A stretch of 64,000 bases of DNA from Halobacteriovorax marinus (lineage in GTDB: Bacteria; Bdellovibrionota; Bacteriovoracia; Bacteriovoracales; Bacteriovoracaceae). The position numbers and the translations under genes are program-made. Location of the stretch: contig MAAO01000007.1 in NCBI GenBank assembly GCA_002163155.1, forward strand, positions 62,001 through 126,000. Direction: 5' to 3'. The stretch's first letter is position 1. Each line of letters begins with the position of its first letter. Positions 8,566 to 48,142 of this stretch are shown piece by piece. Under the pieces are notes generated by a model. It worked only from the letters and a program-made list of their open reading frames with translations. It was not told where the DNA came from and searched no databases.

Positions 8566-9888
8566 ATGAAAAGAATAAAAAGTAAAAGAGAAATTGTTAT
8601 TGTTGTTGGTGCAGGTCCTGTGGGGATAGCTGCTGCTGCCAATCTTGTGGAGAGAGGTTTAACTCCCATTGTTCTTGAAAGAGGACTGAATGCGGGACAC
8701 GCAATGGAGAAGTGGGGACATATAAAATTATTTACCCCATGGAAGTTCTTAGTAGATAAGTCTGTTCTAAAGTTACTTGCTAAAACTTCTTGGAAGCACC
8801 CCGAGAGAGAACACCTTCCTACGGGAAAAGAAATTGTTGATGAGTACTTAAAACCTGCCGCCCTTGATACTCAGTTGAGTGAGCATATTATCTATGATGC
8901 TAAGGTGATTTCCATTTCAAAGAAGAATTTGAGTAAGTCATCTTCACTTAATAGAGATGAAGCTGAGTACTCGGTTAAGTTTAGAGACTCCCATGGAGTT
9001 ATTCATACAAGTTACGCAGCTGCTGTGATCGATGCCACAGGAACTTGGTTTTCTCCTAATCCCATAGGAGTTGATGGACTACCTGTTGCCGGTGAAATCG
9101 AAAATAGTGATCTCATCCATTACGGAATTCCTGATGCCTCTGGAAGAGATCAGGAAAGTTTTCTAGGAAAGAGAACTTTGGTCCTAGGGGGAGGTCACTC
9201 TGCCATAAATATCACGCTAGATATTTTAAAACTAAGAGAAACTAGTTCTGATACAAAACTCATTTGGGGACTTAGAAAAAACAATATCGATAAACTTCTT
9301 GGAGGTGGAATTAACGACAAGCTACCTGCTAGGGGAGCTCTCGGCATGGCCGCAAAGAAGGCCATTGATGAAGGGGATCTAGAACTCTTTGCTCCTTTTG
9401 TCATAGAGAAACTAGTCAGAGTTGAAAATACTCTTGAAGTTCATGCGGTAGTGGATAGTCTAAAAAGAGTTTTCACTGTTGATAATATAGTTGTGACAAC
9501 TGGCTTTAGACCCAACTTGGAAATGTTGAGAGAGTTGCGCTTAGATGTAGATCATATTGTTGAAGCTCCTACTAAGCTCGCTCCGCTCATTGATCCCAAT
9601 CTACACTCTTGTGGTTCAGTGAGACCACATGGCGTAAATGAGCTCACTCACTACGATAAGAACTTCTTTATCGTGGGAATGAAGGCCTATGGTAGGGCGC
9701 CGACATTTCTAATGTTAACGGGTTATGAGCAAGTGAGATCAATAACAGCATTTCTCGCAGGAGACTTTGAGTCGGCAAATACAGTTGAGCTCACTCTTCC
9801 TTCTACTGGTGTCTGTAGTACTAAGAAAGTTAAGAAAGAAACGAGTTCTTGTTGTGCTCCAAAAGCTAGTTCCCCTGGATGTTGTTAG
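8566..9888 (+). CDS. FAD/NAD(P)-binding oxidoreductase with Cys-rich tail (arsenic-type cluster)
   Basis: A 440-residue two-dinucleotide-fold flavoprotein. The FAD-binding GAGPVG is at residues 15-20 followed by an acidic strand end (VLERG), and the NAD(P)-binding GGGHSA is near residue 208. DATGTW near residue 160 matches the second FAD contact of flavin monooxygenase-like enzymes. The protein ends SSCCAPKASSPGCC; paired cysteines at the tail suggest a redox or metalloid-binding role. It begins an operon with the MFS exporter, whose ATG follows its stop directly. Similar flavoprotein-MFS pairs occur in arsenic clusters, but the substrate here is inferred from arsH and the shared promoter, not shown. 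Confidence 0.85.
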   Translation: MKRIKSKREIVIVVGAGPVGIAAAANLVERGLTPIVLERGLNAGHAMEKWGHIKLFTPWKFLVDKSVLKLLAKTSWKHPEREHLPTGKEIVDEYLKPAALDTQLSEHIIYDAKVISISKKNLSKSSSLNRDEAEYSVKFRDSHGVIHTSYAAAVIDATGTWFSPNPIGVDGLPVAGEIENSDLIHYGIPDASGRDQESFLGKRTLVLGGGHSAINITLDILKLRETSSDTKLIWGLRKNNIDKLLGGGINDKLPARGALGMAAKKAIDEGDLELFAPFVIEKLVRVENTLEVHAVVDSLKRVFTVDNIVVTTGFRPNLEMLRELRLDVDHIVEAPTKLAPLIDPNLHSCGSVRPHGVNELTHYDKNFFIVGMKAYGRAPTFLMLTGYEQVRSITAFLAGDFESANTVELTLPSTGVCSTKKVKKETSSCCAPKASSPGCC

Positions 9889-19525: not shown

Positions 19526-20887
19526 TTATGCAGCTTTTGAAATAGATTTCTCTTGTCTCATATGCATATAGAACTTCATTAAAATATGAAAACAGCCAAG
19601 TCCGGAATTTTGATCGTTTACTCTTTCAAGAGTACTTAGTCCCCAGAAGCGATCTCTGAAAGATTTAATTTTTTCTAATGTGTAGTCCCTTTCAATATTT
19701 CCACCAGAGGTAGGATGAGCATCAAAATTTCTAAATTTCTTAAGTTCATCAATGAAGTTGTATATTTTCTTATCTCTTTGATGCTTAAAGATAGACTCAC
19801 TAAGCTCATTTCTTATTAATGTAATTGTTTTAGAACTACTGGGAGAATAACCTCCTGCAATTTCTTTAAAAAAGGCCGGAATGTTATCGGTATTTCTTCT
19901 TCTTTCGGAATCGGAGCAATAACTATCATATAAATTAGTTACATTACTTTCTTTATAATTTAATAGAGATTCAATAATCTGATAGTAACGCAAGGCCAGT
20001 TTTGAATTCTTTATATTTGTATCAAGATGCTGAGAGTGTTCTAGAAATATTTTCTGATAAACTTCCTCTGCTTCAATAATGTATTTCTGAGAGAGAGGTG
20101 GAAATTTCGACCACATCTCCTGATCAATTAAATTCATAACAATACTATTTCTAGTCTGTTCATAATTTTTTTCTTTAGATTCGAGAAGGTCATAGAAATG
20201 AGCCTTCTTTTCATTTGCTATATAATTTTCATCAAAGTTGTGTCCATCATCCAGTGAAAAGAATTCATCTTCAATTAAAAGTGGATAAGAAGTATTTCCT
20301 TCATAGGGGGAATATGTTCTTTCTTTTTCACTTCCTACTTGGTATTTCAACCCTGTTAATAGTGAATCCCGGCTCATTTGAAAAATATCAGTGATTTCAA
20401 AAAAGACTTCAACGCCTCTTCCTTCTTCTTTTCTCAAGTCGCTATAGTACTTGGGCATATTCTTATATTCTTTTCTGTCAGCAGTTACATTATTATTGAA
20501 AATAATATTTTTAATTGGGCATATATATACATTTGTAAAATCTGTAATGACTAGTTTAGATAACTTATTAACACCATTTTTCATTTGTAATTTTTCTTTC
20601 CACTCATCTACTAATTTTTCAGTAATGTTAATTGTCGACTTTTTAGTTTCATTAACAATTTTTCCCCAGTAAATGGAACTTGATTTATTTTTATTCTTTT
20701 CTTTAAGGCATTCGATGTGGGCCTTAATGATATCTATATCCTTTAATATATTAGGGTGATAAACCGTCAATATATGAAAAGCCGATGAGTCATCTAAACT
20801 TTTTAAAGGTTTCTCAGATTTCGGTTTAAAGTCGACAGTTATGACGTTTGTCATTTTCTTATTTTTTTTACTTTTTTTCTTTGTCAT
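19526..20887 (-). CDS. Large protein with a C-terminal HEPN-type R-x4-H motif
   Basis: A 453-residue protein with a Lys-rich start (MTKKKSKKNKK). Most of it is unrecognised. Near residues 385-390, in a helical region, it has FRNFDAHP, an RN-x3-H form of the R-x4-6-H signature of HEPN domains. HEPN domains are RNases in many toxin and antiviral systems and simple nucleotide- or RNA-binding modules in others. The surrounding helices (ELKKFRNFDAHPTSGGNIERDYTLEKI) fit a HEPN helix pair. CTGGAGAAGG lies before the ATG. It forms a two-gene unit with the 165-residue protein downstream. Function as an RNase is inference from one motif. Confidence 0.6.
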   Translation of the reverse strand: MTKKKSKKNKKMTNVITVDFKPKSEKPLKSLDDSSAFHILTVYHPNILKDIDIIKAHIECLKEKNKNKSSSIYWGKIVNETKKSTINITEKLVDEWKEKLQMKNGVNKLSKLVITDFTNVYICPIKNIIFNNNVTADRKEYKNMPKYYSDLRKEEGRGVEVFFEITDIFQMSRDSLLTGLKYQVGSEKERTYSPYEGNTSYPLLIEDEFFSLDDGHNFDENYIANEKKAHFYDLLESKEKNYEQTRNSIVMNLIDQEMWSKFPPLSQKYIIEAEEVYQKIFLEHSQHLDTNIKNSKLALRYYQIIESLLNYKESNVTNLYDSYCSDSERRRNTDNIPAFFKEIAGGYSPSSSKTITLIRNELSESIFKHQRDKKIYNFIDELKKFRNFDAHPTSGGNIERDYTLEKIKSFRDRFWGLSTLERVNDQNSGLGCFHILMKFYMHMRQEKSISKAA

Positions 20888-21314: not shown

Positions 21315-22409
21315 ATGCCATTTGTATTTGCAGTTATAGGTTTCTTTGTATTCCCTCCCTTTGGAGCAATTATTGGTTTCTTTATAGGTTGTGCTTTTAG
21401 TGATGAAGGCTCAGGTTCTTCTTCTTCTTCTTCATCAAGTGGAAGTTATAATTCTGGATATAGAGAACATACTCAACGGTCAAATAATATTCAGTCTTCT
21501 TCATCTGGTAGTAATGTATCTGCTCCCGTCAGAAAGGATCTAAATAAAGAGATAGAACCTCTTTACTTAGAAAAAGACTATAGGAAGTTAATTTCTATTA
21601 TTAATAACGATAGGGACTTTATATCTCTTTATTCTTATTCAAAAGAATACTTTCTTCATGCTCTCTTCGTACAAGAAAAATATACTGAGTTTGAAAGGTA
21701 TTGTTATCAAAGTAAAGAGTCATTTGAGGACTTTTATGATGTTACAAAGGGAATGTTCTTCTTTTGTATTTATAATAATCGAAGAGATGAAGGATTAAAG
21801 ATTGAAGGGGTCCCTGATTACATCAGTGCATGGGAAAAGTTTAAAAAGATAGATCAGCCAAAATTAAAAGATATAAAAATTCTTAATATAGAAGACTATG
21901 AAACGAAGTCGAAATTATTCATTAGAAATATCTACGATAGCATTTGTGTAGAAATAAAAGACATGGAAGATTCACTAAAGAATCTCCTGCAATCAAACGG
22001 GGTGATTTTAACTTCGAAAGAAAAGCCTAATGGTTTGGTTATGCCTAGTACATCAGCTTTACAGTCCCATGAAATAAGTATCATCGAAGAAGTAGATTTT
22101 ATCATTGTGAACAAAATTGATTTTGATGAAATAGATGACTTAAAGGAAAATTTAGCAACAAGTATTCCCCTGGAAAATATCTACTTTGTTGAGACTGAAA
22201 AAAGCGTACTTGAAACACTTACTAAGGAAGAACTTAGATTTGTAAAAAGTGAAAAAAAGCGTCTTGTAGACAATATTAAAGCAGACCAGAAATTATGTTT
22301 TAATAACTTGGATACTTCGAAAATTGAACTAGATTTTATTGAATCGATTAGAGAAGAAATGCTCGATGATTTAGAGTTTACAATGAATGAAAAGGAGCTT
22401 GCAGCTTAA
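21315..22409 (+). CDS. Membrane-anchored protein with degenerate GTPase-like domain (dynamin operon gene 1)
   Basis: A 364-residue protein from the ATG at 21315 (GGAG 6 bases upstream); an in-frame TTG at 21294 lies within the promoter and is rejected. The N-terminus is one hydrophobic, Gly-rich segment (VFAVIGFFVFPPFGAIIGFF) followed by a Ser-rich linker. The C-terminal half contains FIIVNKIDFDEIDDL (nt ~22095-22140), which looks like the G4 strand and motif (NKxD) of a GTPase without a P-loop. The same stretch, in recognisably similar form, occurs in the last gene of the operon. Its stop abuts the start of the first dynamin. Probably the membrane anchor or adaptor of the dynamin pair; this is inference. 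Confidence 0.75.
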   Translation: MPFVFAVIGFFVFPPFGAIIGFFIGCAFSDEGSGSSSSSSSSGSYNSGYREHTQRSNNIQSSSSGSNVSAPVRKDLNKEIEPLYLEKDYRKLISIINNDRDFISLYSYSKEYFLHALFVQEKYTEFERYCYQSKESFEDFYDVTKGMFFFCIYNNRRDEGLKIEGVPDYISAWEKFKKIDQPKLKDIKILNIEDYETKSKLFIRNIYDSICVEIKDMEDSLKNLLQSNGVILTSKEKPNGLVMPSTSALQSHEISIIEEVDFIIVNKIDFDEIDDLKENLATSIPLENIYFVETEKSVLETLTKEELRFVKSEKKRLVDNIKADQKLCFNNLDTSKIELDFIESIREEMLDDLEFTMNEKELAA

Positions 22410-25400
22410 ATGTATAAGAAATTTAATCCTGAAGACTACATTGATCCATTAGAAATAGAATATTTTCCATTTCTAGAACAAGAACAGAACTTAAAAAACT
22501 TAAGATATGGTGCTATTGGACAATTTCATAGTCCTGTAGCAAATGTAGGAAAGAATACTGTAAAAAATGTAGGAAGAGTATTAAGAGGTACTTACTATGG
22601 TGCACTCTTTTTCTTTAATCCAATGATTGTTCTTCTTACTCAATCTAGGCATATTTTAGAGTTAGGTCGATTTGTCGCAAGAAATGATAAAGAGGCCATA
22701 CTTTTAAAATTCAAGTCAAGCCACATCGTTCCTAAAGAGATTAACTATGCAATTGATCTTTTTAACAATGGTGATGTTGATAGGGCCATTTCCAAACTAG
22801 ATGATCTAGATAATGAGTTAGAAAAATTAAATGAAATTGATGATAGAATAAATCTTCTAACCGTCAGGGCCCAGTTTGAAGCTAGAGAGGGGAGGTTCCT
22901 TGTTGCTGCAATAGATATGATTTCAGCAGCAACACTCGTTGAATCAAGTGTAACCGTTTCTGAGCATGGGGAAGAGAATACTCTTGCTCATATAAGTGCA
23001 AAGGGTAAGTACTACTTTTGTGCAGTAATGTTTTTAAGAAAGTATGCTTTTATTCACGGCGTGAATGAAGATCTAAAATCTGCATTCAAAAGGTTTGGGA
23101 AAAAAGCAGAAGAGTTTTTTAATTATGAAGCTGACTATAGAGAGAAAAATGGCATTCATAATACAGGTTTCTACGATTTAAAGATTTTCAAACTTCCAAA
23201 GATCTCTTTTGGGAAAGATACTGAGTCCGCAACATTAAATAGAATTCTTGCCTCTAATGTTAAAAAGTTACAATACCAAATTGAGGCACTCAATGATTCA
23301 TCAATTCTTTTAGAGTCTATAAAGAACGAAATATATAAATCTTCTTCGGATACAATGTTCTTGATAGATATTCTTGAAAGTATTGATATATTAATTAATC
23401 AAAAGCTTTCTTTATCTGAAGATGATTTAGGCGCTATTAAAAAGTTTTACTCATATTGTGAGAAGAAAATAGCAAAAGACATGAAATCTCATCTTGTGCT
23501 GTCTGAATGCCGCTTTAAAGTATTTATCGGAGAGAAGGTAGGTGCACTTGCTGATTGTATGACAGCACTTGATTTTTGTGATGAAGAAGAAGTAGATGAT
23601 GTCATTTATCTCTTTGAAAGAATGAGAGAACAGTTTTCACAAGATGAACAAAAGGAAATAGTCTCCTATCTATTGAATCATGAGAAATCAAACTTTATAA
23701 ATATTAAAGTTAGGTCTTACTACTTGCAAATGACAGGGAGTGAAACTGCTCAGGATGATTATTTAGCGAAAGCGTTTTACCCTAAAGATGTAGAAGAGTT
23801 TGCCGGTTCAATAAATAAAATTGAATATTGCCAGCACTACATTAGATCGGGTGAAGAAATTATAGAAATTGATACGCCATCACTAAGGGCCATACTTGGT
23901 GCTAAATTTATAAAAAAGCATGGAGAGGTTAATGAACCCGGTTTAAAGAGGTTAAATTTTAAGGTTCTAAAAAATGGTAAGTACCATGAGCATCTTCCTA
24001 CTAGAGATTTAGATGGAGGGGCAATTGAGAAGAAAGCTTCATTGTCTGAAACTATTAACGATGTTTGTGATTTCTTCTACGAAATAAAAGGTTTAGAAAG
24101 CGTAAGAAGAAGACTTGATAATGAAAGAATTAAAGTTGGAGTTTTTGGTGTCATTAGTACGGGGAAAAGTACATTCATAAACTCCCTTGTTGGAATGGAG
24201 CTTTTAGGTACTGACAAAAGAATTGCAACAAATATAAAAACATCAATTATTTCAGGAGATAGAGACTGTGCAGAAGTTCTATTTTTAAATGGTGATAAAT
24301 TAGTCGTTAAATTGGATGAGGTTTCAGGATATACAACAGAGCAAGAAAATTCATACAATAATAAAGAAGTTGAACGAGTCATAATTTATTTGAAAAATTT
24401 AGATATTCCTCCTGACATTGAAATTGTAGATATTCCAGGAATGGGTGCTTATGAAGAAGGGCATGAATTTCATGTTAGAAGTGTAGAGTCTGAGCTCGAT
24501 GAGGTTGATTGCGTCTTGATGTTAGTCTTACCAGATGATGCTTTAGATCTACATGCTACAAACTTTATAAAGAAAGCCGTTAATGAGAAAAAAGTTCCCT
24601 TTCTTCTACTCGTCAACAAATCTGAGGATATAGGCTTAGATGATAGGGAAGATTTAGAAGAAAATATCATCGAAAAGTTATCTAGGCATGAAATTGATAT
24701 AGATAGCTTAGGTTTTTACTTTGTTTCATCTACAATGGCACTTGGAGGAAAACTTAAGTGTAATGATACAATGGATTATTTTGCAATGACCTCTGAAGAT
24801 TGTATTGGTGAATCAGGTATACCTGAAGTTGAAAATAAATTATACAAAGAGCTCTCTCCTTTAATAAAGAAAAAGAAACAGTTATCGATCCTAAGTAGAA
24901 CTTTATTTGAGTTAACAAGTAGTAAGAAACTTGATGAGTGTACCTTAAAGGATTCTGTGAGCTCTCTTGAGGGCGAAGGTAGTGAACTTAGAGAAGAGCT
25001 TAATCGTCTTGAAAAGTTATCTCATCAAATTTCTTCTCCCATTATGTTTTCTACATTATCTAATGACTTGGTTCAAAGGTTCTCTTTAATCGATTCGAGA
25101 GCATTAATTCACAAAACAAATTTCGATAAAGATAGTATTTCGGCATTATCTTCAAATTCAGAGGTGTACGAAACTCTGTATGGACCAATTTATAATACCT
25201 ACTTAGTTAAACGAGCAGAATATATCGATACTTTCTATGAAGAAATTAAGAATATGATAAGTATAGAAATTGATCGAATAAAATTAAAATCTCGCTCTTT
25301 TTTAGATGAGGACTACAGTCATATTGAAGAATTAAACGAAAATGCAATAACTCGAGGATCATCAGCTAAAGCAGGTAACTTTTTTACTCGTACTTTTAGA

Positions 25401-25673
25401 AAGGATCGAGTGATTGAACAAACATCTAAAGTCATAATAGAAGAAATTATTGAAAAAGATAAAAAGAGCTATATTCGTTTGATCGATGAAGAAATTAGTA
25501 ATTACGCAAAACTCTTTCATCTTCTAGAAGATAGAGTTGATTCTATCAAGAAAACACAAGGTATGAACGAAAGTGAATTAGAGTCTTTAATAGAAGAAAT
25601 GAATCTATCAATAAATAAGAAAAATCAGACTATAAGAATATTAATGGAGATAAGAGATGAGCTGTGTATTTAA
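22410..25673 (+). CDS. Dynamin-like GTPase A (large)
   Basis: A 1087-residue protein. The GTPase domain starts near residue 570: G1 GVFGVISTGKST (P-loop), G3 DIPGMG near 674, G4 NKSE near 736, and a long helical stalk afterwards. The 560 residues before it hold a hydrophobic segment near 65-75 (YGALFFFNPMIVLL) and helical, TPR-like sequence. Bacterial dynamin-like proteins bind and remodel membranes; tandem pairs such as Campylobacter Cj-DLP1/2 assemble as hetero-oligomers. A 1087-residue form with a 560-residue N-terminal extension is unusual. Its stop overlaps the next gene by 17 bp, so the two GTPases are translationally coupled. Confidence 0.85.
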   Translation: MYKKFNPEDYIDPLEIEYFPFLEQEQNLKNLRYGAIGQFHSPVANVGKNTVKNVGRVLRGTYYGALFFFNPMIVLLTQSRHILELGRFVARNDKEAILLKFKSSHIVPKEINYAIDLFNNGDVDRAISKLDDLDNELEKLNEIDDRINLLTVRAQFEAREGRFLVAAIDMISAATLVESSVTVSEHGEENTLAHISAKGKYYFCAVMFLRKYAFIHGVNEDLKSAFKRFGKKAEEFFNYEADYREKNGIHNTGFYDLKIFKLPKISFGKDTESATLNRILASNVKKLQYQIEALNDSSILLESIKNEIYKSSSDTMFLIDILESIDILINQKLSLSEDDLGAIKKFYSYCEKKIAKDMKSHLVLSECRFKVFIGEKVGALADCMTALDFCDEEEVDDVIYLFERMREQFSQDEQKEIVSYLLNHEKSNFINIKVRSYYLQMTGSETAQDDYLAKAFYPKDVEEFAGSINKIEYCQHYIRSGEEIIEIDTPSLRAILGAKFIKKHGEVNEPGLKRLNFKVLKNGKYHEHLPTRDLDGGAIEKKASLSETINDVCDFFYEIKGLESVRRRLDNERIKVGVFGVISTGKSTFINSLVGMELLGTDKRIATNIKTSIISGDRDCAEVLFLNGDKLVVKLDEVSGYTTEQENSYNNKEVERVIIYLKNLDIPPDIEIVDIPGMGAYEEGHEFHVRSVESELDEVDCVLMLVLPDDALDLHATNFIKKAVNEKKVPFLLLVNKSEDIGLDDREDLEENIIEKLSRHEIDIDSLGFYFVSSTMALGGKLKCNDTMDYFAMTSEDCIGESGIPEVENKLYKELSPLIKKKKQLSILSRTLFELTSSKKLDECTLKDSVSSLEGEGSELREELNRLEKLSHQISSPIMFSTLSNDLVQRFSLIDSRALIHKTNFDKDSISALSSNSEVYETLYGPIYNTYLVKRAEYIDTFYEEIKNMISIEIDRIKLKSRSFLDEDYSHIEELNENAITRGSSAKAGNFFTRTFRKDRVIEQTSKVIIEEIIEKDKKSYIRLIDEEISNYAKLFHLLEDRVDSIKKTQGMNESELESLIEEMNLSINKKNQTIRILMEIRDELCI

Positions 25674-27756
25674 TAAGATTACAGATGTCTTAAATGAAAT
25701 AGGCATTACTGAGTACATTAGTGTTGTTGAAGAATGTAAGGACATTTACGACTCACCAGAGATAAGAATAGGTCTGTGGGGAGATTTTAGTAGCGGGAAA
25801 TCATCATTTCTAAATGCTATGTTGGGTCGAGAAATATTTCCTGTGAATATTACTGAGATGACAGCAATGGTAACAGAGTTACGATATGGTGAACGATTGG
25901 AACTTGTCGCGGTGAAAGACGGCAAGGAGTACTGCTATCCCTATACTAAGGAGCTCGCTCATATACTATTGACTAGAGTTTTCAAATTCGATGACTTAAA
26001 GCCGTCTGCAAGAAAGAAACTTGATACAGATATATTTGAGAAAGCGATTTCAAAAATAAGAGAAGATGGTTTACATGGTGAAGGAGCTGAATTTGATGAT
26101 TTCTTAGATAAAGTCATCGTAAAGTGCAATTTTGATGTTCTTAAAAGTGGTATTGTTTTCGTAGATCTTCCTGGCCTTAAGGGAAGCTCTTCGCATTCAG
26201 CATTGACTGCGCAAGAAATAAAAAATTGCTCTATGGTAATATACTTTAAATCAAGTGATAGACCTCTTTCAAAATATGATAAAGAAGTTCTTGATGACTT
26301 GAAGGATGCCAACGAGAAGATGGTTCTTTTTGGTATTTATAATAAGTGTGATCTTGAGCTTAAGTCTCATCATAAGGAACTTGGAAATAAAGAATTTGTC
26401 ATTAAAGCGAGAAAAGAGTTACTTGATACTTTTATCAATGATGTAGAGAAGTTTGCAAAACTTGATGAATACTTCACGATAAGTCCATTGATGATGCATT
26501 ACTATAAAATGATAGAAGGTAATGAATCAGAGGCGCTGAAAGCTTTAAAAAATGATCATCCAAGTAAATTTAGATTTTTAAAAGAAGATCACCACTATGA
26601 TTTAATTGCAGGGATATCAGATTTTGATGAAAGATTTTTTAAAACAATTAATGAATTGAGAGAGTACGCTAAGAAACGAGTAATAGAAGGCAAGTTTGTT
26701 AGAGTGATAAAGGAAATTGACGGCTCTATTCTAAAGCGAGAAGAGGCCATAAAATCAACAGTAGAGCTATCGGTAGATGAATATGAAGATGCTATGGAAA
26801 ATCTTGCACTTCAAGAGAAAAAGCATCTTCAATTGAAGAGCTTTGGACCTAAAGTACAAATGGCAATAAGGTCTGAACTTACAAGATTTGTAAGTGAGAA
26901 TGTGCAAAAAATTGCTGAAAAAACATTGGGTGCATTAAGCAACCGAATGTTTAATAACCAAGGTGAATTTAATCATGAGCTTACTAGAAATATGAGTAAG
27001 GAAGTTTCTAGCTTCCTAATGAATGAAGGGAAAACAGATTTCTGCAAAGTTGTTGATAAGGGACTAAAATCGATTGAAAATGATATAGGATTGATTCTAG
27101 AAGATATCTCTGAAGTTACAGGAATGGTTTTAGATACAAACAAGAAAGTAGATCTAGGTCATGTCGTCGATAGCACTAAGTTAGAGATTGTTGAGTTTGA
27201 AGCAGGTATTAGTGTCGATAACCAACTTACAGGTGGGGCTGCTGCTCTAGATGTAGGAATGATGCTTGCAGATGTGGGGACATTTGGTATGGCAACGATG
27301 GCTAGACTTGCTTTTGCTGGTATGAAGAGTATGGATGAAGGTCGAGGATTTCTAGCTGGAGTTGGAGATGTCATTGATGGAATATTTTCTCTCTTCGACT
27401 CAACAGAAGAAAAAGAAAGAAAGGCGATGGCAAACTTTAGGGAAAACCTTAAAGATTCTACTTTTAGAAGAAATACAGTAAATTCAATTTCATCTCAAAT
27501 GGAACCTGCATATATTGATTATTTAAGTAATATAGTTGTTCAGATACTTCAGGAGAATGAAAGAGTCGCTGAGGAAATCAATGCAATTCTACCCAAGGTA
27601 GAGGAAGCTAGGAGAATTGTTCAAGACACATTAGATAATAAACAATTGTCAGAGGAAGAGAAGCGTACTGAGCTCTTGAAGACTCAGCAGGGACGAGAGG
27701 TACTAAATAATTCCTTGAATGAGTTTTTTAATAACTTAGAAAAACTCGCAGCATAA
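25657..27756 (+). CDS. Dynamin-like GTPase B
   Basis: A 699-residue dynamin-family protein with the GTPase domain at the N-terminus: G1 GLWGDFSSGKSS near residue 39, G2 Thr in ITEMTAM, G3 DLPGLKG near 170 and G4 NKCD near 229. A long helical stalk follows, interrupted near residues 527-560 by the hydrophobic ALDVGMMLADVGTFGMATMA, a plausible membrane paddle like that of BDLP and LeoA. Its start lies inside the 3' end of the first dynamin gene. The two probably form a complex on the membrane, with this one as the membrane-inserting partner. Confidence 0.88.
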   Translation: MSCVFNKITDVLNEIGITEYISVVEECKDIYDSPEIRIGLWGDFSSGKSSFLNAMLGREIFPVNITEMTAMVTELRYGERLELVAVKDGKEYCYPYTKELAHILLTRVFKFDDLKPSARKKLDTDIFEKAISKIREDGLHGEGAEFDDFLDKVIVKCNFDVLKSGIVFVDLPGLKGSSSHSALTAQEIKNCSMVIYFKSSDRPLSKYDKEVLDDLKDANEKMVLFGIYNKCDLELKSHHKELGNKEFVIKARKELLDTFINDVEKFAKLDEYFTISPLMMHYYKMIEGNESEALKALKNDHPSKFRFLKEDHHYDLIAGISDFDERFFKTINELREYAKKRVIEGKFVRVIKEIDGSILKREEAIKSTVELSVDEYEDAMENLALQEKKHLQLKSFGPKVQMAIRSELTRFVSENVQKIAEKTLGALSNRMFNNQGEFNHELTRNMSKEVSSFLMNEGKTDFCKVVDKGLKSIENDIGLILEDISEVTGMVLDTNKKVDLGHVVDSTKLEIVEFEAGISVDNQLTGGAAALDVGMMLADVGTFGMATMARLAFAGMKSMDEGRGFLAGVGDVIDGIFSLFDSTEEKERKAMANFRENLKDSTFRRNTVNSISSQMEPAYIDYLSNIVVQILQENERVAEEINAILPKVEEARRIVQDTLDNKQLSEEEKRTELLKTQQGREVLNNSLNEFFNNLEKLAA

Positions 27757-27768
27757 GAAGGAGTTGTA

Positions 27769-28677
27769 TTGAAAGTTGTAGATTTAGCAAATAAATTGAA
27801 TATTGTTACTGACCAATTAGTATTTGACTTAAAAACTAAGGGGATTCCTATAGAAGGGTATATGTGTCATATATCAGATACTCAAATCCTTGAATATCTA
27901 ACTATTAAAAAGATTTCAGTACCTGCATGCTTAAATTATTTGAATAAAGAAAAGCCAAGAGAAGCCAAAGTAAAGCATGTTGGATTCTATTGTGATGGTG
28001 TCCGCAATGTCGATAGACTCTTAAAGTACATAAATAACAAGGGCCACGAATTAAAAGAATATTCTTTAGAAAATGATGCTGAGGTTTCATGTGATATTTT
28101 GATTTCATCAAGCTTGAGTGCTCTCACTGAAAAAGAGCGAGAAGTATTAAAAAATAATGATGTGTCTGTCGTTATATTTGCAAACACAGACTTTGATGCT
28201 GTAGAAGATTTGATTGAAGATTTAGATGAGTCAGTTTATGAGAAATCTTTTTTTGTTCCAGAGTTTGATGTTCTTTTGAATGAAGAAGGAGGTTTGCAGT
28301 TAGAAGGTTATAATACATTTGAAAAATTATTATTTGGAAAGGGCCTTACTTTTCTTGTTAATCAAGTGAAGGGTTTACTTAATGAGAAGATGCTTAAAGA
28401 AGAAAATATTGAAAATTTGAAAAATATTATGCACAAAATTCTTGGCGACAATGTTGAGGGAAGATACACACCTATGGAAGATACTTTCTTAATACAAACG
28501 GTAGATGTTACCTATGATGAAGAAGAAAATATTGTTCCAACACTTGCTCGATGGGAACCTGAACCATGGGGCAACATGACTCAAAGAGAGCAGGAAATAG
28601 CCAGCCAAGCACTCCAAGATGGTGTAAATTGCATGAATACTATCTTTAAAGTGCAAGCTAAGAAATTCAAAACTTAA
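27769..28677 (+). CDS. Dynamin operon gene 4: IF2-N-like start plus degenerate GTPase-like domain
   Basis: A 302-residue protein that starts at TTG (27769) with a strong AAGAAGGAG 5 bases upstream. The first ~50 residues (KVVDLANKLNIVTDQLVFDLKTKGI) resemble the small N-terminal module of translation factor IF2. Residues ~65-165 resemble a GTPase core without a working P-loop: KHVGFYCDG, CDILISSSLSALTEKEREVL and VVIFANTDFDAVEDL, where NTD occupies the G4 position. The segment SALTEKE...DFDAVEDL aligns with SALQSHE...DFDEIDDL in gene 1. It may be a regulator or scaffold of the dynamin pair. Length and architecture match no family I know. Confidence 0.72.
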   Translation: MKVVDLANKLNIVTDQLVFDLKTKGIPIEGYMCHISDTQILEYLTIKKISVPACLNYLNKEKPREAKVKHVGFYCDGVRNVDRLLKYINNKGHELKEYSLENDAEVSCDILISSSLSALTEKEREVLKNNDVSVVIFANTDFDAVEDLIEDLDESVYEKSFFVPEFDVLLNEEGGLQLEGYNTFEKLLFGKGLTFLVNQVKGLLNEKMLKEENIENLKNIMHKILGDNVEGRYTPMEDTFLIQTVDVTYDEEENIVPTLARWEPEPWGNMTQREQEIASQALQDGVNCMNTIFKVQAKKFKT

Positions 28678-34946: not shown

Positions 34947-35612
34947 ATGTTAGACCTATTTGATTTTTTATTTGAAGGTAGTGAAGAAATAGAATTTGAA
35001 ACCATTGAAGGTGGTATTGAGGTTGATTCTGGAATTCACGATGTTTTAGGTGAATCTAATGAAGATCAAGTTCTCTTTGCGCTTAATCGTATGACAAACG
35101 ATGTGGATGAGTCGACTTTAGAAGAGGCCGCAGAGTATTTTAAAAATGCGAGCTATTCACAAGATTCTTTTAATGGAATTATTTCTAATTTAAAAGGAAT
35201 TCACGGTGAAGTGCAGGTCTTAGAAGAATTAGAAATGAGACCTGACTTTGAGGCGAATTATGTGATTCCAACTTCTACCTCTCATGAAGCTGTAGATATT
35301 TACGGTGTTGATGAGCACGGGACAATTTTAGAAAAGTATCAAGTTAAAATGAGCTTAGATAAGAGTTATATTCAAAGAACATTAGATGAGCTGCCTGAGG
35401 ATGTGAAAATCATTTGTCCTAGTGAGATCGCTGATGAATTTGATGATGATAGAATTGTTGATGTAGGAGTTAAACTCTCTCATGTTGAAGCGAATATTGA
35501 TGACCTATGTGAAGTTTTAGCGACTTCAGAGCCTTGGGAAGCAGAACTTGGTCCAAAGTTTGATCACTGGATTGATGAAGATTTTGAATTTGACTTTGGG
35601 ATGATTGGATAA
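34947..35612 (+). CDS. Acidic protein with Mrr-like nuclease-fold signature
   Basis: A 221-residue, very acidic protein. The centre reads GIHGEVQVLEELEM, then a strand VIPTSTSHEAVDIYG and a strand KYQVKM. GEv...L, avDIyg and YQVK in this order and spacing resemble the PD-(D/E)xK fold of Mrr-like nucleases, where Gln can replace the last acidic residue. The Asp/Glu content elsewhere is unusual for a DNA-binding enzyme, and helicase-type partners are absent. A ribosome site GGAGGTATAAG is clear. It overlaps the next gene by one base. Nuclease activity is inference. Confidence 0.65.
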   Translation: MLDLFDFLFEGSEEIEFETIEGGIEVDSGIHDVLGESNEDQVLFALNRMTNDVDESTLEEAAEYFKNASYSQDSFNGIISNLKGIHGEVQVLEELEMRPDFEANYVIPTSTSHEAVDIYGVDEHGTILEKYQVKMSLDKSYIQRTLDELPEDVKIICPSEIADEFDDDRIVDVGVKLSHVEANIDDLCEVLATSEPWEAELGPKFDHWIDEDFEFDFGMIG

Positions 35613-36535
35613 TGAAGAAGAAAGGTAGCTTACTTGGTATTTTAAATCAATCATTGCAACTCGGTGGAGCTGTTTTTGAAAAGTTTTTCAATTTAACTAT
35701 TGATGGTGTTCAAGATTTATTAGTTTCTGTTATTGATTATGGAGCTGACTTATCAAAGGTTGATAGATCAAAAATAATTGATTTCTTACAAGTCATAAAT
35801 ACGAAAAGAACTCTCGCTTGTGCAGTTTATCCAATTGCTGAGATTGAAAAGAAAATTGCAGAAGAACCAGATAAATACCAATTTAAAATCGACTACGTAG
35901 AACAATTGGAAAGACAATCTGTTCTTGTGATGAAACTTATGGAGTGGATGGCCTTTTCTCCCATTGAGAGAAAAGCAGTTGAAAGAATGTTTAAAAATGT
36001 TCAAGAAGTAAGGGATGAAGTTGGTTTAAGTCAGCTGCATTACGATGAAATAAAATTCATACTGGCCTCAATTACAAAGAAGTTAGATATTGCCTTGAAT
36101 AAAAGAGATGAAGACGAGTTTAAGTATATTTTAGTGGATTATCTAAGGTGCCAAATAATATTGGGTGAATCCGATAATATAAACGAGTATCTAGAGATCT
36201 TGGAGAGCTTTGATAAGAGCAATTTCAATATGTTAAAAGGAAGGTACCTTTTTAGTAAGGGAGATGCTGAAAATGCGTATACTTATCTAAGAATAGCGCA
36301 TGATAACAAAGTTGAGTATTCAGAGGACCTCTTGGCTCAATGTCTAGATCAGCTTACTAAAGAATCAAAAGATAAAGAAAAATGGATCAAGATAAAGAGA
36401 GAACTCTTTGGTGGTCTATTTTCGGATTCAAATAAAGAAATTTTAAAATCATTACCGTTTACGTTTTTACAAATTAAGTGGCAAGAAATTCACAAAGTTT
36501 ATAATAATTTGAAGGGGAAAAAGAATGCTTCATAA
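35612..36535 (+). CDS. Helical protein of the sigma operon, unknown function
   Basis: A 307-residue, soluble, all-helical protein. A slightly hydrophobic start (SLLGILNQSLQLGGAVF) may bind membrane peripherally. The C-terminal half (ILGESDNINEYLEILESFDKSNFNMLKGRYLFSKGDAENAYTYLRIA) has TPR-like spacing. It begins with a TAATG overlap on the previous gene and overlaps the DUF697-like gene by 11 bp, so the three are tightly coupled. No family recognised. Confidence 0.7.
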   Translation: MKKKGSLLGILNQSLQLGGAVFEKFFNLTIDGVQDLLVSVIDYGADLSKVDRSKIIDFLQVINTKRTLACAVYPIAEIEKKIAEEPDKYQFKIDYVEQLERQSVLVMKLMEWMAFSPIERKAVERMFKNVQEVRDEVGLSQLHYDEIKFILASITKKLDIALNKRDEDEFKYILVDYLRCQIILGESDNINEYLEILESFDKSNFNMLKGRYLFSKGDAENAYTYLRIAHDNKVEYSEDLLAQCLDQLTKESKDKEKWIKIKRELFGGLFSDSNKEILKSLPFTFLQIKWQEIHKVYNNLKGKKNAS

Positions 36536-37112
36536 AATTGAAACTTTTATAAAAAATCTTAGCGAACATATTGAAAATGATGACCAGTCATCAAACGATG
36601 ATCCAGTTAAGAAAATGATTTCTAAGTACGCTGCCATTTGTGCTGTGTTTGCTATGCTTCCCAATTCTCTTATTCCTGGAAGTGACTTTGTTGGTCTCAC
36701 ATTAATTCAATGTGTGATGGCGAGAAATATTGCGAAACACTATGGTAAGAACCCTTCTTTTGATGAATTAAAGGAGCTTATTAAAAATATTGGGATGACT
36801 ATGGGGCTAGCTTTTGGTGCTCAACAGCTGGTTCTGTCGCTTTATAGAACAATTGTACCTTATTGGGGAGGAGTCACTACCTTTGCAATGGTTTTCTCAG
36901 CAACTTACGCTGTTGGTTATGTCATTGATTGCATTTATAAGTCAGAGGCAGAAGGAGTTGATTTTTGTCCTGATAATATGAAGACCATAATTGGCGACTT
37001 AAAAGAAGAGGGGAAGAAGCTATCGAAAGACTTTAATCCTAAGAAGTTATTTAGTCATGCCAAACAAGCATGGAGCGATACAAGTAAAACTAATAATGAT
37101 AAAGCAGCATAA
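36525..37112 (+). CDS. DUF697-like membrane protein
   Basis: A 195-residue protein. Residues ~25-150 resemble DUF697: KYAAICAVFAMLPNSLIPGSDFVGLTLIQCVMARNIAKHYGK, followed by a second hydrophobic helix pair ending TYAVGYVIDCIYK. The P..L.P..D..GLT..Q..M...IA..YG pattern is the usual family signature. DUF697 proteins are often paired with GTPases, including dynamin-like ones, and such a pair is encoded 10 kb away under the same promoter type. A strong AGGGG ribosome site lies inside the previous gene. Confidence 0.75.
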   Translation: MLHKIETFIKNLSEHIENDDQSSNDDPVKKMISKYAAICAVFAMLPNSLIPGSDFVGLTLIQCVMARNIAKHYGKNPSFDELKELIKNIGMTMGLAFGAQQLVLSLYRTIVPYWGGVTTFAMVFSATYAVGYVIDCIYKSEAEGVDFCPDNMKTIIGDLKEEGKKLSKDFNPKKLFSHAKQAWSDTSKTNNDKAA

Positions 37113-41528: not shown

Positions 41529-44500
41529 ATGAAAAAAGTATTTATAACTGAAATTAACGATATTACTAGAGAATTTCTAAAGACTCAAGAAAGTGGTAAA
41601 GATGAGAATAATTATACTGCTAATGTTCTTTTACCATTCCTTAAAAATAAATATAACTTTTTCGAGTTAGATTTTGATCAGACAAATGACAATGGAAAAA
41701 AACCTGATCTTGTATGTTACGTTGAACATGAAGGTGTTAAGGAAGCAAGGGTCGTATTCGAATGTAAATTGCCGAAAGAGTTTAAAAACCTTCAAGGTGA
41801 GCAAATTGTAAATAAGTATTTAGATGAAAAAATAGTTGAATATATTTTAAACCACGAAGTCACTATAAATCACTTAGTTTTATTCTCATTTACGAAGGCC
41901 ATTTTAATAGAGGTAAGTGATGAGCTTCTTATATCTATTAAAAAATATCATATTGGGGAAATTTCTCAAGATAAAATAGTTGCTATAATTACAAATAGCT
42001 CAATGTTTATAAATTTTGAACAAAAATTAAAGAAAGATAGAGTAGTCGAAATAAACAAATTTATAAATGCAATGGATATAAAATTTAATAATTTTAAAAA
42101 AAGTAGGTGTGGAAAAAAATATATTATTAAAGATAAAGCATCTTTATCTAAATTTTGCAATGACTTATCATCTACAATTTTAAGTACAGAAGAAAGTTAC
42201 AAGTATGGTCTGTACGAAAGAACAAAAGATTATGTTGAAACTGAACTAATGAAGCAAGCTTCAAAAGTAAAGGTTGCCTATCGTTTGTTCTTGTCCACTC
42301 GCTTTCCAGATGATGAGGCTAGTTCAATAGACTTAAGAGATGAGCCAACTGAAAGAGAACTGTTTGTTCTATCGACTATTTACAATTATATTGCAAAATT
42401 CTTTGTACAAAAATATGTTGAAGATTTATATTCAGGAGAAGCTGGATTGATCTCTTCTTCTAGTTGTTTTATATCAAACTTTAACTACCAAGAGGAAGAT
42501 GTCTCTATCTATTTAGAAGAAGGTTTTAAAGTTATTGCGAACGAGACAACACCTGCTTATAAGAAAATTCTTAAAAAAAATAGTTATTTTAATTGGATAT
42601 ATGATTCAGAAATTATGGAAACTGAATCATTCAGAAATTTTATTTTGATATTCTCAAAACTTGATCTTAAAGCCTCTCTCTTAGATGGTAAATATGATGG
42701 TGATATTTTAGGTGGATTTTTTGAACAATTTTCTGAAAAGTTTAACAGTGGTGTCAAAAAGGTATTTGGGCAATATTATACACCAAGTATTTTGGTTAAG
42801 TTTATGTGGAAAAGAGTAATAGAGGTTTTAAATAAACAGGATATAGATATCTCTTCGTTGAAACTGCTGGACCCGGCATGTGGATCTGGAGCATTTGTAG
42901 TTGAAGGTATTAATCAACTATCAAGCTTAACAAATGAAAATCTTTCTAAAAAGATTGTAGCTTTTGATATAAGTCCAATGGCTGCTAGCTTAGCAGAAAT
43001 AAATATATATGTTGCTCTGTTAAACAACCTTAAGAAGAGTAGTGTTTGCAAGTTAGATACTGTCGATGTTTTTAATACAGACTCTTTGAACATTTCAGAA
43101 AGTGAATATTGGGAGTCCTGTCTACTCTTCGAAGATAATGCGGAAAGGGCAGATCTTGTTAATGTTGAAAAGATTATTACTAATAAATATAAAAAAGCTA
43201 AGGAGTATACATTAGTTGTGACTAACCCTCCATATAATGGAAATAGTTCGAGAACTTTGGAAAGTCTTAAAGGTAAATTTACTCTATTAGACTATTTATC
43301 AGATAAAAAGACTAAAGACGACAGAATTAGAGATGATTATGTATGGTTTATGGGAGCTATAGACAGATATATAAATGAATTAGGGGTTGTTTCACTAATT
43401 ACGAGTGATTCATATTTGGCAAAGAAGTCATTTATACATTTAAGAAAATATTTATATGAAAACTATCAAATCCATGAAATTCACCACTTCGGTGGTGGAA
43501 TGTTTGACGGAGTTAAGTCTGCAACATGTATAATTACTATGTCTAAATTAGATAATGTTAAAGTCATTTATAATGATAACTCAGGCATTGATTATTATGA
43601 TTTAAGAGAGTCGAAAGGCAATAACAACAGATCTTTAGATGAACGCTATCATTACTTAGCTGGAGAAAAAGATATAGCCGTTAAAAAACTTTACCCAAAA
43701 AAAGATAATAATTATTCATTTGTGGTTGGCGAAAAAATTACGACGATAAACAATTGCTTACCTTTTTACAAGCCAAAAGCGAAAGAGTCAATTGTCAAAA
43801 AGAAGTATACGGGCTTAGTTACTGGCTATAAAGAACTGTTCACAGATGAGGATCCATCTCACTTAGTTGAAAAGCTTAAAGAACTCTTTGTCTTAGCAAA
43901 AGAAGTTAAAAGAGTTTCAAAGAAGTCTATCTTACCGATATGTACAGATAGGTTTGTGAAAGACTTTGCTTTAGAGGTTTTTGAGGGTGGCAAGAAGTAC
44001 GATAAAATTAATAATAGGGTTCGGGAGTACATTGAAAGATTCTCATTAGTTCCGGTTAGAAATAAAGAGAATGCTGAGCTGTATATAAGTATGTTGATCT
44101 CCTCCATAATTTATAAAGGAATGGTTTTCGACGAATCTAATGTCAGAAATAGTTTGAAGCTACAAGAAAGTGATAAGTATTCTGTGGCATCATCAAGTTA
44201 TAGTTTTATCTATTTTGATGATAGATTTACCATTCCTCGTTACAACAAAAAGAAGACAGTTAGCGATGGAGGAGGAGTATGCTCTTGGAGTTCTAATCAT
44301 GATGTTCAAGATAAAGTCATTTATTCTTCGATGAAAGACTCAAAAGGATTTACCAGTATGCAGGTTGGACTTCCAGGATTTACTAATTCTTATGTATTAA
44401 AAGATATTGCCAAAGGAGGGAAAGCTCACTTCTTTCGTAGTTCCGAGCTTGATCTTATGCCAGTCTTTTCAACGAATGGATTAAAACGAATTGATGTTGT

Positions 44501-45521
44501 CTACTTAGTTCAGTCAATAGTTAATTCATCCTGGATAAAGGAAAATTCTGATTATGTTACTGCTAATTATGTCCCGATACCTATTCCACATTTGTCAAAT
44601 CTAACACTTATGAAGAGAATTATAAAAGAGGCAAGGTACTGCAACTGTCTGTCTCAACTTCTTATTTTTAGAGAATTAGGCAATAAGATATTAAAAGTTC
44701 AAAAGAATGTGTTGCTAGAGATTCTCGGAAAGAATGAATTAGAGAGAGTTTTGTCTAAGGATTTTGAAGGGATAAAAAAAATAATACAGAGAAAGGAAAA
44801 GCTGTTAGATTTGAATGTTACCCAACTTATTAATATTAATAACTCTATCGAAAAAGATATTACGGCTTCAGTTGAGAGTCGGATAGTACCTTTATCCTCA
44901 AAAGGGAGATTTGGAGAGAGCCTTGAAAAACAATTTTCTGTAGGACTATTCATACTTAATGAGCTTCAGGGAGATTTAACACTTGGACTAACAAAATTTC
45001 AAAAAGTTTATTATATGATAGATAGTATACTAGATGAAGAGTTAGATACCTCATATACGAGAGATGCGGCTGGTCCAGTAAATTATAAATTTTTATATGA
45101 TAAAACTAACTCATTTATTAAACTTGGAGAAAAGGTTCGTGCCTTTAGTGCAGTAAAAAATGACAATCAAACAATATTTAGTAATGTTAAATGTTTACCG
45201 CATTATGAAACAATCTCTAAAAATCTAATACGCGGTCATGAACAAGAAGTTTATGGCATATTAAGGCTATTTAAAAATATGAACCTTGAGAAAGCAGAGG
45301 TCATCGCAACTCTCTATGCTATTTGGAATGACTTTCTCATAAGAAAGGTTGAATTCGACGATAACAGTATTTTGCATGAGTTCTATAATAATTGGCATAA
45401 AGAAAAAAATATAAAGTTTGATAAAAAAAAGATTTTTGTAAAAAGAACTTTAAAGTACATGAAAGACAATGATTTAATCCCTAGAGGACTGAAGAATAGA
45501 ACTAAAAAGAAAGCTTCATAA
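41529..45521 (+). CDS. Type IIG-like restriction-modification enzyme (nuclease-methylase fusion)
   Basis: A 1330-residue single-chain enzyme. The N-terminal nuclease domain has PDLV near residue 58 and VFECKLP near 77, a PD-(D/E)xK pattern. The N6-adenine methylase domain starts near residue 410: motif I DPACGSGAF near 448 and motif IV NPPYNG near 566. The C-terminal third is the likely target-recognition domain. No helicase domain is present, which argues against type ISP/LlaBIII. Restriction and methylation in one chain protects the host by marking its own sites. The gene is much more AT-rich than the neighbours, has no clear ribosome site, and stands alone, consistent with horizontal transfer. 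Confidence 0.88.
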   Translation: MKKVFITEINDITREFLKTQESGKDENNYTANVLLPFLKNKYNFFELDFDQTNDNGKKPDLVCYVEHEGVKEARVVFECKLPKEFKNLQGEQIVNKYLDEKIVEYILNHEVTINHLVLFSFTKAILIEVSDELLISIKKYHIGEISQDKIVAIITNSSMFINFEQKLKKDRVVEINKFINAMDIKFNNFKKSRCGKKYIIKDKASLSKFCNDLSSTILSTEESYKYGLYERTKDYVETELMKQASKVKVAYRLFLSTRFPDDEASSIDLRDEPTERELFVLSTIYNYIAKFFVQKYVEDLYSGEAGLISSSSCFISNFNYQEEDVSIYLEEGFKVIANETTPAYKKILKKNSYFNWIYDSEIMETESFRNFILIFSKLDLKASLLDGKYDGDILGGFFEQFSEKFNSGVKKVFGQYYTPSILVKFMWKRVIEVLNKQDIDISSLKLLDPACGSGAFVVEGINQLSSLTNENLSKKIVAFDISPMAASLAEINIYVALLNNLKKSSVCKLDTVDVFNTDSLNISESEYWESCLLFEDNAERADLVNVEKIITNKYKKAKEYTLVVTNPPYNGNSSRTLESLKGKFTLLDYLSDKKTKDDRIRDDYVWFMGAIDRYINELGVVSLITSDSYLAKKSFIHLRKYLYENYQIHEIHHFGGGMFDGVKSATCIITMSKLDNVKVIYNDNSGIDYYDLRESKGNNNRSLDERYHYLAGEKDIAVKKLYPKKDNNYSFVVGEKITTINNCLPFYKPKAKESIVKKKYTGLVTGYKELFTDEDPSHLVEKLKELFVLAKEVKRVSKKSILPICTDRFVKDFALEVFEGGKKYDKINNRVREYIERFSLVPVRNKENAELYISMLISSIIYKGMVFDESNVRNSLKLQESDKYSVASSSYSFIYFDDRFTIPRYNKKKTVSDGGGVCSWSSNHDVQDKVIYSSMKDSKGFTSMQVGLPGFTNSYVLKDIAKGGKAHFFRSSELDLMPVFSTNGLKRIDVVYLVQSIVNSSWIKENSDYVTANYVPIPIPHLSNLTLMKRIIKEARYCNCLSQLLIFRELGNKILKVQKNVLLEILGKNELERVLSKDFEGIKKIIQRKEKLLDLNVTQLININNSIEKDITASVESRIVPLSSKGRFGESLEKQFSVGLFILNELQGDLTLGLTKFQKVYYMIDSILDEELDTSYTRDAAGPVNYKFLYDKTNSFIKLGEKVRAFSAVKNDNQTIFSNVKCLPHYETISKNLIRGHEQEVYGILRLFKNMNLEKAEVIATLYAIWNDFLIRKVEFDDNSILHEFYNNWHKEKNIKFDKKKIFVKRTLKYMKDNDLIPRGLKNRTKKKAS

Positions 45522-45665
45522 ATTATTTGAGGATAAAGTCTCCAAGGAAAAATAGCTTTCTTTTCTTTGTTCATAGACTACGTTAATTATTTTATAATCT
45601 ACTTTCGTTAGTAATTGTTCTAGTTCTTCTCTTTGGTCGTGTGTGTCACCGATAAAGTCGTACAT
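45516..45665 (-). pseudogene. Truncated calcineurin-like metallophosphoesterase
   Basis: A 49-codon frame starting at 45665 with a good AGAGGA ribosome site. The start, MYDFIGDTHDQREELEQLL, matches the opening of GDxHG metallophosphoesterases (ApaH/PrpE-like: YD.IGDIHG...EL..LL..LGY), with D7 and H9 of the metal site present. These proteins normally have 200-300 residues; this frame ends at a TGA inside the 3' end of the methylase gene, so the catalytic rest is gone. It is best read as a gene cut by insertion of the restriction-modification gene. Confidence 0.6.
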
Positions 45666-45692
45666 AAATTTCCTCTTAATAGTTTTATAGCT

Positions 45693-46418
45693 CTATAAAG
45701 AACTTACCCCTATAACTTTTTCTTTTGTTATTTTAACAGAGTTAAAAATAGTGGCACAATATTCTTTATACTTCCCATCTGTCGCATCATATATTTTTAA
45801 CATAGGTAGGCCATCAATAAACCAGATATTTATTATCGCAAGTTTCCTAGCAAGATGTCTTCCATCAAAGTCTAATGTCATATCTTTAATATTCGCGGTA
45901 ACCCAGTGCTTCTTCCGTATAGCGAGAAGAATGTCTATAATATTATTCTTGGGATAGGTAACTGCCTTAGGTTTTTCTGAAAGGGTCTTGTATGATTTTA
46001 AAGAATACTTAAGTTCTTTTTTTACAATGGAAGGAACTTTGTCTAATAAATTTGCTTCAGTATTACGTAGTAATTTTATAAGAGGTCCTGTTGATGTATT
46101 TTTCAAATTTTTTAAGGAGTATAGAATAATCTGTATTTGAGATGGAGATAGATCTACTTTATAGTCAGCTTCGTAAAATGAGTCGATCCAGTATCTTACA
46201 GGTTTATCGCCGACGCTAAGTAATTTATATTCATTAGACATCCCGTTAATATTTCTTGCCACTGTCCTTCGTGTCCCAGCGAATTCGTATATCGAAACAA
46301 GCTTATTAAATATACTTGTCACTGTCAGAGCACTTGTCTCATCAACGGATTTTAAAATTTCAGCAATATATAACTGAAGATAAATATTCTTTGATTCATA
46401 TTTTCTATTGGACACCAT
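45693..46418 (-). CDS. WYL-like regulator (divergent from nucleotidase operon)
   Basis: A protein of about 241 residues from the ATG at 46418. The N-terminal part is a helix-turn-helix of the WYL kind (LQLYIAEILKSV...SALTVTSIFNKLVSIYEFAGTRRTVARNINGM), and the C-terminal part (HWVTANIKDMTLDFDGRHLARKLAIINIWFIDGLPMLKIYDATDGKYKEYCATIFNSVKI) resembles a WYL effector fold with altered signature residues. The start is uncertain: ATGs at 46418, 46433 and 46580 all lack good sites. It probably controls the divergent operon at 46464, via the palindrome and repeats in the 45-bp gap. Confidence 0.6.
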   Translation of the reverse strand: MVSNRKYESKNIYLQLYIAEILKSVDETSALTVTSIFNKLVSIYEFAGTRRTVARNINGMSNEYKLLSVGDKPVRYWIDSFYEADYKVDLSPSQIQIILYSLKNLKNTSTGPLIKLLRNTEANLLDKVPSIVKKELKYSLKSYKTLSEKPKAVTYPKNNIIDILLAIRKKHWVTANIKDMTLDFDGRHLARKLAIINIWFIDGLPMLKIYDATDGKYKEYCATIFNSVKITKEKVIGVSSL

Positions 46419-46452
46419 GTGTCCATTGTACATGAGATGATCTATTTGTACA
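46410..46452. promoter_or_regulatory. Operator-like palindrome and repeats between divergent genes
   Basis: GGACAC-CAT-GTGTCC (46410-46424) is a perfect palindrome covering the start codon of the leftward regulator gene. TTGTACA occurs twice (46426-46432 and 46446-46452), 20 bp apart, i.e. two helical turns on one DNA face. The second copy ends just before the AAGGAGG of the rightward gene. Binding would control both directions. Confidence 0.5.
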
Positions 46453-46463
46453 AAGGAGGGAAA

Positions 46464-46658
46464 ATGAGTGAAATATTTAAGTTTATCGACATTGATGGAG
46501 GGATAGCTCGCTTTGTTGAAGAAGCAGATGGGTATTACCTGATTGGCGGAATACCCGAGCAGAGAAAATTCTTGTCTCAATGTAGGGAGGAGGCGTTAAC
46601 GCTATATGGAGATTTTCTTTCAGATTATGTAATGAGCTATATAGGGGAGGAGATATGA
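46464..46658 (+). CDS. Small protein, paralogue of the protein at 47345
   Basis: A 64-residue protein from ATG 46464 with AAGGAGG 4 bases upstream (a longer frame from 46419 is rejected). MSEIFKFIDIDGG...EEADGYYLIGG aligns with the start of the 117-residue protein encoded two genes later (NEILKYTDIDES...EENGSYFIEG). No known family. It overlaps the nucleotidase gene by 4 bp. Confidence 0.7.
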   Translation: MSEIFKFIDIDGGIARFVEEADGYYLIGGIPEQRKFLSQCREEALTLYGDFLSDYVMSYIGEEI

Positions 46659-47335: not shown

Positions 47336-47344
47336 GAGGAAGGC

Positions 47345-47698
47345 ATGAAGAATGAAATTTTAAAGTACACAGATATCGATGAAAGTTCTCTAATTGTTTC
47401 TGAGGAAAATGGAAGTTATTTCATAGAGGGCTCAATTTTAGAGTATAAAATAGAAAAAGAGAATGCCATTACAAGTCGAAAAGAAGCTTTTCTTGTGTTT
47501 CATCATATTTTGTCTAGATTTGTACTACGTAGTGCTTATATATCTGGTTACCTGTCACCAATTGACAAGCTAGAGAGGGCAAACGAAAGATTAAGAGTTA
47601 GCTGTGCGATGTTATATGACTGTGGGCTGGTTAAGAGGATTAGTGAAGAGGAGCTAGAAAAACGTCTGGCGGAGCTTGATGAGGATGATGATTGTTAG
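47345..47698 (+). CDS. Small protein, paralogue of the protein at 46464
   Basis: A 117-residue protein with AGGAGG 6 bases before the ATG. Its first ~60 residues match the 64-residue protein at 46464 (EIxK..DID, GSYFI.G, SR.EA, LS.FV). The extra C-terminal half is acidic and helical (SEEELEKRLAELDEDDD). The two paralogues flank the nucleotidase gene. No known family. Confidence 0.7.
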   Translation: MKNEILKYTDIDESSLIVSEENGSYFIEGSILEYKIEKENAITSRKEAFLVFHHILSRFVLRSAYISGYLSPIDKLERANERLRVSCAMLYDCGLVKRISEEELEKRLAELDEDDDC

Positions 47699-48133: not shown

Positions 48134-48142
48134 GTAGATGGT

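Follow-up and report, generated by a model that had tools for sequence, protein, structure and literature searches.

An orphan tandem-dynamin operon with its own putative accessory proteins in Halobacteriovorax marinus

Dynamin genes of bacteria mostly occur as pairs within operons, and the Campylobacter pair Cj-DLP1 and Cj-DLP2 assembles as a 2:2 tetramer (PMC6104087). In LeoABC of enterotoxigenic Escherichia coli (ETEC), or Eleos (LeoA plus LeoBC), a split dynamin, LeoC/LeoB, lies upstream of LeoA (PMC4159319). Bacillus subtilis DynA, a fusion of two dynamin units, clusters at the membrane and delays phage lysis (PMC8844932), and dynamins are listed as a defence system beside Eleos (PMC11811056). 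Here we describe an operon of four genes, g1 to g4, in a 64,000-nucleotide stretch of the Halobacteriovorax marinus contig MAAO01000007.1 (positions 62,001 to 126,000; hereafter the window, to which all coordinates refer). The operon, read from its sequence, encodes two full dynamin-like GTPases (g2 and g3, the latter with a paddle-like region) bracketed by a protein with a hydrophobic, probably membrane-anchoring N-terminus (g1) and a protein that starts like the N-terminus of translation initiation factor IF-2 (IF2-N; g4), and several defence genes lie in the same window. The best reading of this gene content is a variant of the tandem-dynamin kind, an orphan with accessory proteins of its own, and not a categorically new kind of system.

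By layout, the four genes form a tight operon, all in one direction, with the coordinates and order that an earlier reading of the DNA letters without database searches (the sequence-only reading) had given them (Table 1). Gene g2 follows the g1 stop codon without a gap (0 nt), g2 and g3 overlap by 17 nt, and 12 nt separate g3 from g4. The starts of g1 (ATG 21315, used instead of 21294, the mechanical start of the longest open reading frame) and g4 (TTG 27769) are preceded by AGGAG and AAGGAG, respectively. The same reading had recognized tandem dynamins in the two middle genes, and both indeed exceed the Pfam cut-off for Dynamin_N over the G domains listed in Table 1 (E = 2e-17 for g2 and 2e-22 for g3). 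Judged by the motifs of a bacterial dynamin, namely a G1 P-loop, a G3 DxxG and a G4 [NT]Kx[DE], g2 (GVISTGKS, DIPG and NKSE) and g3 (GDFSSGKS, DLPG and NKCD) are genuine dynamin-like proteins. The remaining 'dynamin' matches in the same genome were recognized by eye from their sequences as the housekeeping GTPases Der and Era.

Table 1 Coordinates in the window of the operon genes, of segments within them and of other features.
Feature	Position	Strand	Description
g1	21315..22409	+	364 aa; putative N-terminal hydrophobic anchor, low-complexity Ser/Gly linker, helical middle (TPR-like by eye), C-terminal segment common with g4
g2	22410..25673	+	1087 aa; dynamin-like; helical N-terminal extension of ~540 aa before the G domain, G domain aa 576-737, presumed helical trunk
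g3	25657..27756	+	699 aa; dynamin-like; G domain aa 39-230, hydrophobic paddle-like region ~aa 528-582
g4	27769..28677	+	302 aa; IF2-N-like start, alpha/beta middle, C-terminal tail
IF2-N-like domain of g4 (aa 1-46)	27769..27906	+	IF-2 N-terminus profile, 32.8 bits
Common segment in g1 (LVMPSTSALQSHE...VDFIIVNKIDFDEIDDLKENL...NIYFVE)	22035..22192	+	BLASTP, Smith-Waterman, profile alignment
Common segment in g4 (CDILISSSLSALTEKERE...VSVVIFANTDFDAVEDLIEDL...SFFVPE)	28090..28270	+	BLASTP, Smith-Waterman, profile alignment
PDC-M72B-like gene	34947-35612		
N6-methylase/type IIG-like protein	41529-45521		
McrBC-like pair	49239-52863		
WYL regulator	55977-56939		
IetA-like AAA ATPase	57075-59375		

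The two dynamins differ from each other in their closest relatives and in their hydrophobic regions. Sequence searches of the Protein Data Bank (PDB) gave Nostoc BDLP1 (2j68, E = 2e-10) as the best match of g3, followed by a GTP-binding protein (5owv, E = 4e-7), and mitofusin Fzo1 (E = 3e-8) as the best match of g2; no bracketing genes are described for BDLP1/BDLP2 in the literature cited here. Hydropathy places two hydrophobic stretches within aa 528-582 of g3, which by sequence would be a paddle. The trunk of g2 carries no hydrophobic stretch, the one near aa 65-83 lying in the N-terminal extension, a region that is helical by eye and has a weak PhoU match.

Among described systems, LeoABC/Eleos shares the tandem arrangement of dynamin-like genes, and g3 matches the PADLOC models for both LeoBC (52 bits, E = 1e-14) and LeoA (49 bits, E = 1e-13) along most of the protein, beginning at the G3 region. 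Eleos is defined by two genes that match LeoA and LeoBC, respectively; here both strong matches fall on g3, whereas g2, with its long helical extension, matches LeoA alone and weakly (20 bits), so that by the model test the operon is not Eleos. It also has no split GTPase gene, and g1 and g4 have no Leo counterpart. Cj-DLP1/Cj-DLP2 likewise lie side by side in an operon with an extra gene, but that gene is HcpA-like and neither an IF2-N-bearing nor an anchor protein accompanies them. DynA resembles the present pair in that two dynamin units would act jointly at the membrane, in its case with phage protection; the cited DynA literature describes no accessory operon genes.

In other clusters, too, adjacent dynamins have neighbours of their own. 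On a Photobacterium plasmid (L021, 7920-14693) and an Aeromonas contig (L060, 2074-11962), a dynamin pair is followed by a conserved small accessory protein of 252-287 aa and then by a further dynamin; the two accessory proteins are akin to each other (29% identical, E = 4e-13) and not to g1 or g4. The Photobacterium cluster lies between conjugation genes. In two Akkermansia contigs (L033, 9006-15140; L035, 9081-14894), adjacent dynamins are bracketed by a C39-like peptidase (a Pfam match in L035, with a 65% identical homologue in L033) and an Hsp70-like protein. Altogether, 18 loci with neighbouring dynamin genes were examined, and in several of them the dynamins come with unrelated accessory genes of their own.

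The four-gene combination itself was found nowhere else in our searches, which together covered 1,993 genomes, some repeatedly and with different queries in different groups, the absences being bounded by this sampling and by the use of single-sequence queries. This agrees with the sequence-only reading, which knew of no such form; the conserved four-gene neighbourhoods that it proposed to look for did not emerge, as none of 38 dynamin loci from one scan of genome contigs has relatives of g1, g4 or the N-terminal region of g2 nearby. Within the order, g4 retrieved mainly IF-2 N-termini (129 genomes) and g1 just weak, scattered matches (125 genomes). Across 291 genomes of the phylum g3 retrieved none except itself, and g4 gave no confident relative in 222 genomes of the phylum of an Acidobacteria locus. 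For the N-terminal region of g2, no confident relative appeared among 369 genomes of the class and 296 of the order of the Aeromonas locus, or among 247 of the phylum of a Desulfobacteraceae locus, and 296 genomes of the phylum of a Sunxiuqinia locus gave three weak matches (E = 0.003-0.007). Plasmids and phages (the phages queried with g3 only) yielded G-domain matches to g2 and g3 and no relatives of g1, g4 or the g2 N-terminal region, and viral contigs likewise contained no relative of these three; negatives from contig scans are weak, because single-protein scans of this type choose poor patterns.

These distributions and the Leo matches bear on the alternative that the two dynamins work in maintaining the envelope or releasing vesicles, a role proposed for LeoABC, instead of in phage defence, with g1 and g4 as localization factors. 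LeoBC and LeoA are the best family matches of g3, and disruption of leoAB reduces vesicle-associated secretion (PMC4159319). Set against this, a housekeeping function would be expected in relatives, whereas the operon was not found in the order and phylum samples, and several restriction and defence genes share the window; we regard this alternative as unlikely.

The outer genes of the operon have the two terminal features ascribed to them at first sight, a membrane anchor in g1 and an IF2-N-like start in g4. Residues 6-24 of g1 have a mean hydropathy of 2.2, and the protein has a DUF456 fragment match (E = 4e-5) under the Pfam cut-off. The IF2-N-like start of g4 is strongly confirmed at the profile level: it scores 32.8 bits against a profile built on N-terminal IF-2 sequences of the same order, versus 9.3 bits for the best among 5,000 shuffles, with the Pfam family IF2_N (PF04760) under its cut-off (E = 0.06). 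A PDB sequence search with g4 gave no match below E = 0.29, and a literature text search gave no match for dynamin combined with an IF-2 N-terminal domain. With so clear an IF2-N, g4 might itself be a trigger or effector acting on translation, which abortive systems often target, the dynamins merely localizing it. However, IF2-N is a non-catalytic domain and the remainder of g4 matched no enzyme family, and we consider such a role very unlikely.

Beyond these termini, g1 and g4 have in common the segment that the sequence-only reading had delimited by the patterns S.SAL...E and DFD..[DE]DL, at the positions given there. It is the top BLASTP match between the two proteins (35% over 46 aa, E = 8e-4 in a single comparison), no window protein matches g1 better than g4 does, and the Smith-Waterman score of 80 was equalled by 5 of 3000 g4 shuffles and by none of 3000 g1 shuffles. 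The match is thus significant but not overwhelming, because an unrelated glutathione-transferase-like protein of the window reaches a similar z against g4 (5.4-5.8, with 5 and 1 of 3000 shuffles equal). It is for this reason that we treat as rather unlikely, and not as negligible, the possibility that two unrelated acidic proteins without a common domain match over a short stretch by convergence or chance. That explanation is favoured by the equal score of the unrelated protein, by an alignment core of just ~46-60 aa and by the noise-level scores of both proteins against dynamins (below), and is opposed by the BLASTP value, by the rank of g4 and by low-confidence models that show strand-helix-strand-helix-strand in the same order over both segments.

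That this segment represents a degenerate GTPase domain is a further claim, plausible and weakly supported. As had been seen at the outset, neither g1 nor g4 contains a P-loop (GxxxxGK[ST]), and a motif search of the two proteins found no DxxG either. Where a G4 motif had been placed, g1 reads NKID and g4 reads ANTD at the aligned position, so that NKxD is present in g1 only. Searched singly with HMMER against a profile of 66 dynamin G domains, g1 and g4 score 0.3 and 0.6 bits, which is noise (123 of 2465 and 275 of 2548 reported shuffles scored as well). The profile-profile comparison proposed as a check gave a more favourable, suggestive result: a two-row g1+g4 profile aligned by hhalign with dynamin strand 4, helix 3 and the G4 strand, the expected register, at a score of 21.7 (column-shuffle mean 11.2, s.d. 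2.4), which 2 of 200 column shuffles reached. With real segments from unrelated window proteins as background, g1 alone ranked 1 in 400 and g4 alone 15 in 400; both this ranking and the hhalign figures flatter the GTPase reading, because the segment had been pre-chosen for its G4-like look. The structure predictions proposed alongside decide nothing: the two separate single-sequence AlphaFold models are poor (pLDDT 43.7 and 44.0), and what they share is the strand-helix order, a pattern that would fit half a G domain and equally any Rossmann-like or receiver-like domain. A Foldseek/VIA fold search with the g4 model returned TIM barrels alongside flavodoxins and septin GTPases, with no significant match among them. 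This mixture, together with the missing P-loop and DxxG and the G4 motif of g1 only, makes it possible, if well short of probable, that the segment belongs to some other alpha/beta domain, Rossmann-like or receiver-like, and is no GTPase relic; the match of the two-row profile precisely at helix 3 and the G4 strand, and the rank of g1 against real segments, speak for the relic.

The operon lies in a part of the window that looks horizontally acquired and within a defence island. The G+C content is ~0.29-0.36 at 18-37 kb versus ~0.39-0.45 at 9-18 kb. In the examined stretch of a genome of the same genus (G046), counterparts were found for a few genes rightwards of ~53.9 kb, with one weak match at 45.7 kb; to the left of 53.9 kb, the window is mostly without counterpart there. 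None of the other four genomes of the genus has the gene at 8566-9888. Most of the window therefore looks variable. A dense defence region, with the type IIG-like, McrBC-like, WYL and IetA-like genes of Table 1, spans 41529-59375. At 48158-49108 (-) lies a gene that is EcsC-like by eye with a weak match to PADLOC PDC-S29 (E = 0.002). The PDC-M72B-like gene (E = 5e-17), whose product is a candidate defence protein, belongs to a three-gene unit at 34947-37112 (+), together with genes for a helical protein and for a DUF697 protein (E = 9e-8). The divergent neighbour of the operon, at 19526-20887 (-), encodes a 453-aa protein without Pfam or PADLOC match that ends in RNFDAH, which has the R-x4-H arrangement seen in HEPN ribonucleases.

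Our preferred reading, which we hold tentatively and rate just short of probable, is that the operon encodes a co-transcribed, membrane-tethered heterotypic dynamin pair with two dedicated accessory proteins, carried as defence-island cargo. Complex formation, location, trigger and defence role are here what we infer for g1-g4. By analogy with Cj-DLP1/2, g2 and g3 would form a heterotypic complex, which g1 may tie to the inner membrane. As a soluble adaptor or sensor, g4 could bind RNA or a protein component of the translation machinery through its IF2-N-like part. Docking might be the role of the alpha/beta segment that g1 and g4 have in common, possibly one half of a degraded GTPase pairing with the G domains in g2 and g3. 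Infection or damage to the envelope would cause the complex to gather on the membrane, which it would then remodel or seal, much as B. subtilis DynA does in delaying phage lysis. Several observations weigh against the preferred reading: nearby defence genes are an association only, the neighbours of other tandem-dynamin loci differ from g1 and g4, no second copy of the four-gene unit was found, and in another study the dynamins predicted on a mobile island showed no activity against the phages that were tried (PMC12595487). A tandem-dynamin immune machine in which g1 at the membrane and the IF2-N fusion g4 are pseudo-GTPases, docking on the G domains of the dynamins and linking dynamin assembly to infection or to the state of translation, seems to us quite improbable.

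Bacterial dynamins usually come in pairs, and the question of what recruits and triggers them becomes accessible to experiment in the present operon, where a putative anchor protein and one bearing IF2-N accompany the pair. The Akkermansia and Photobacterium/Aeromonas pairs carry their own, unrelated helpers, which suggests that helper genes may be a general and little-noticed part of dynamin-pair systems.

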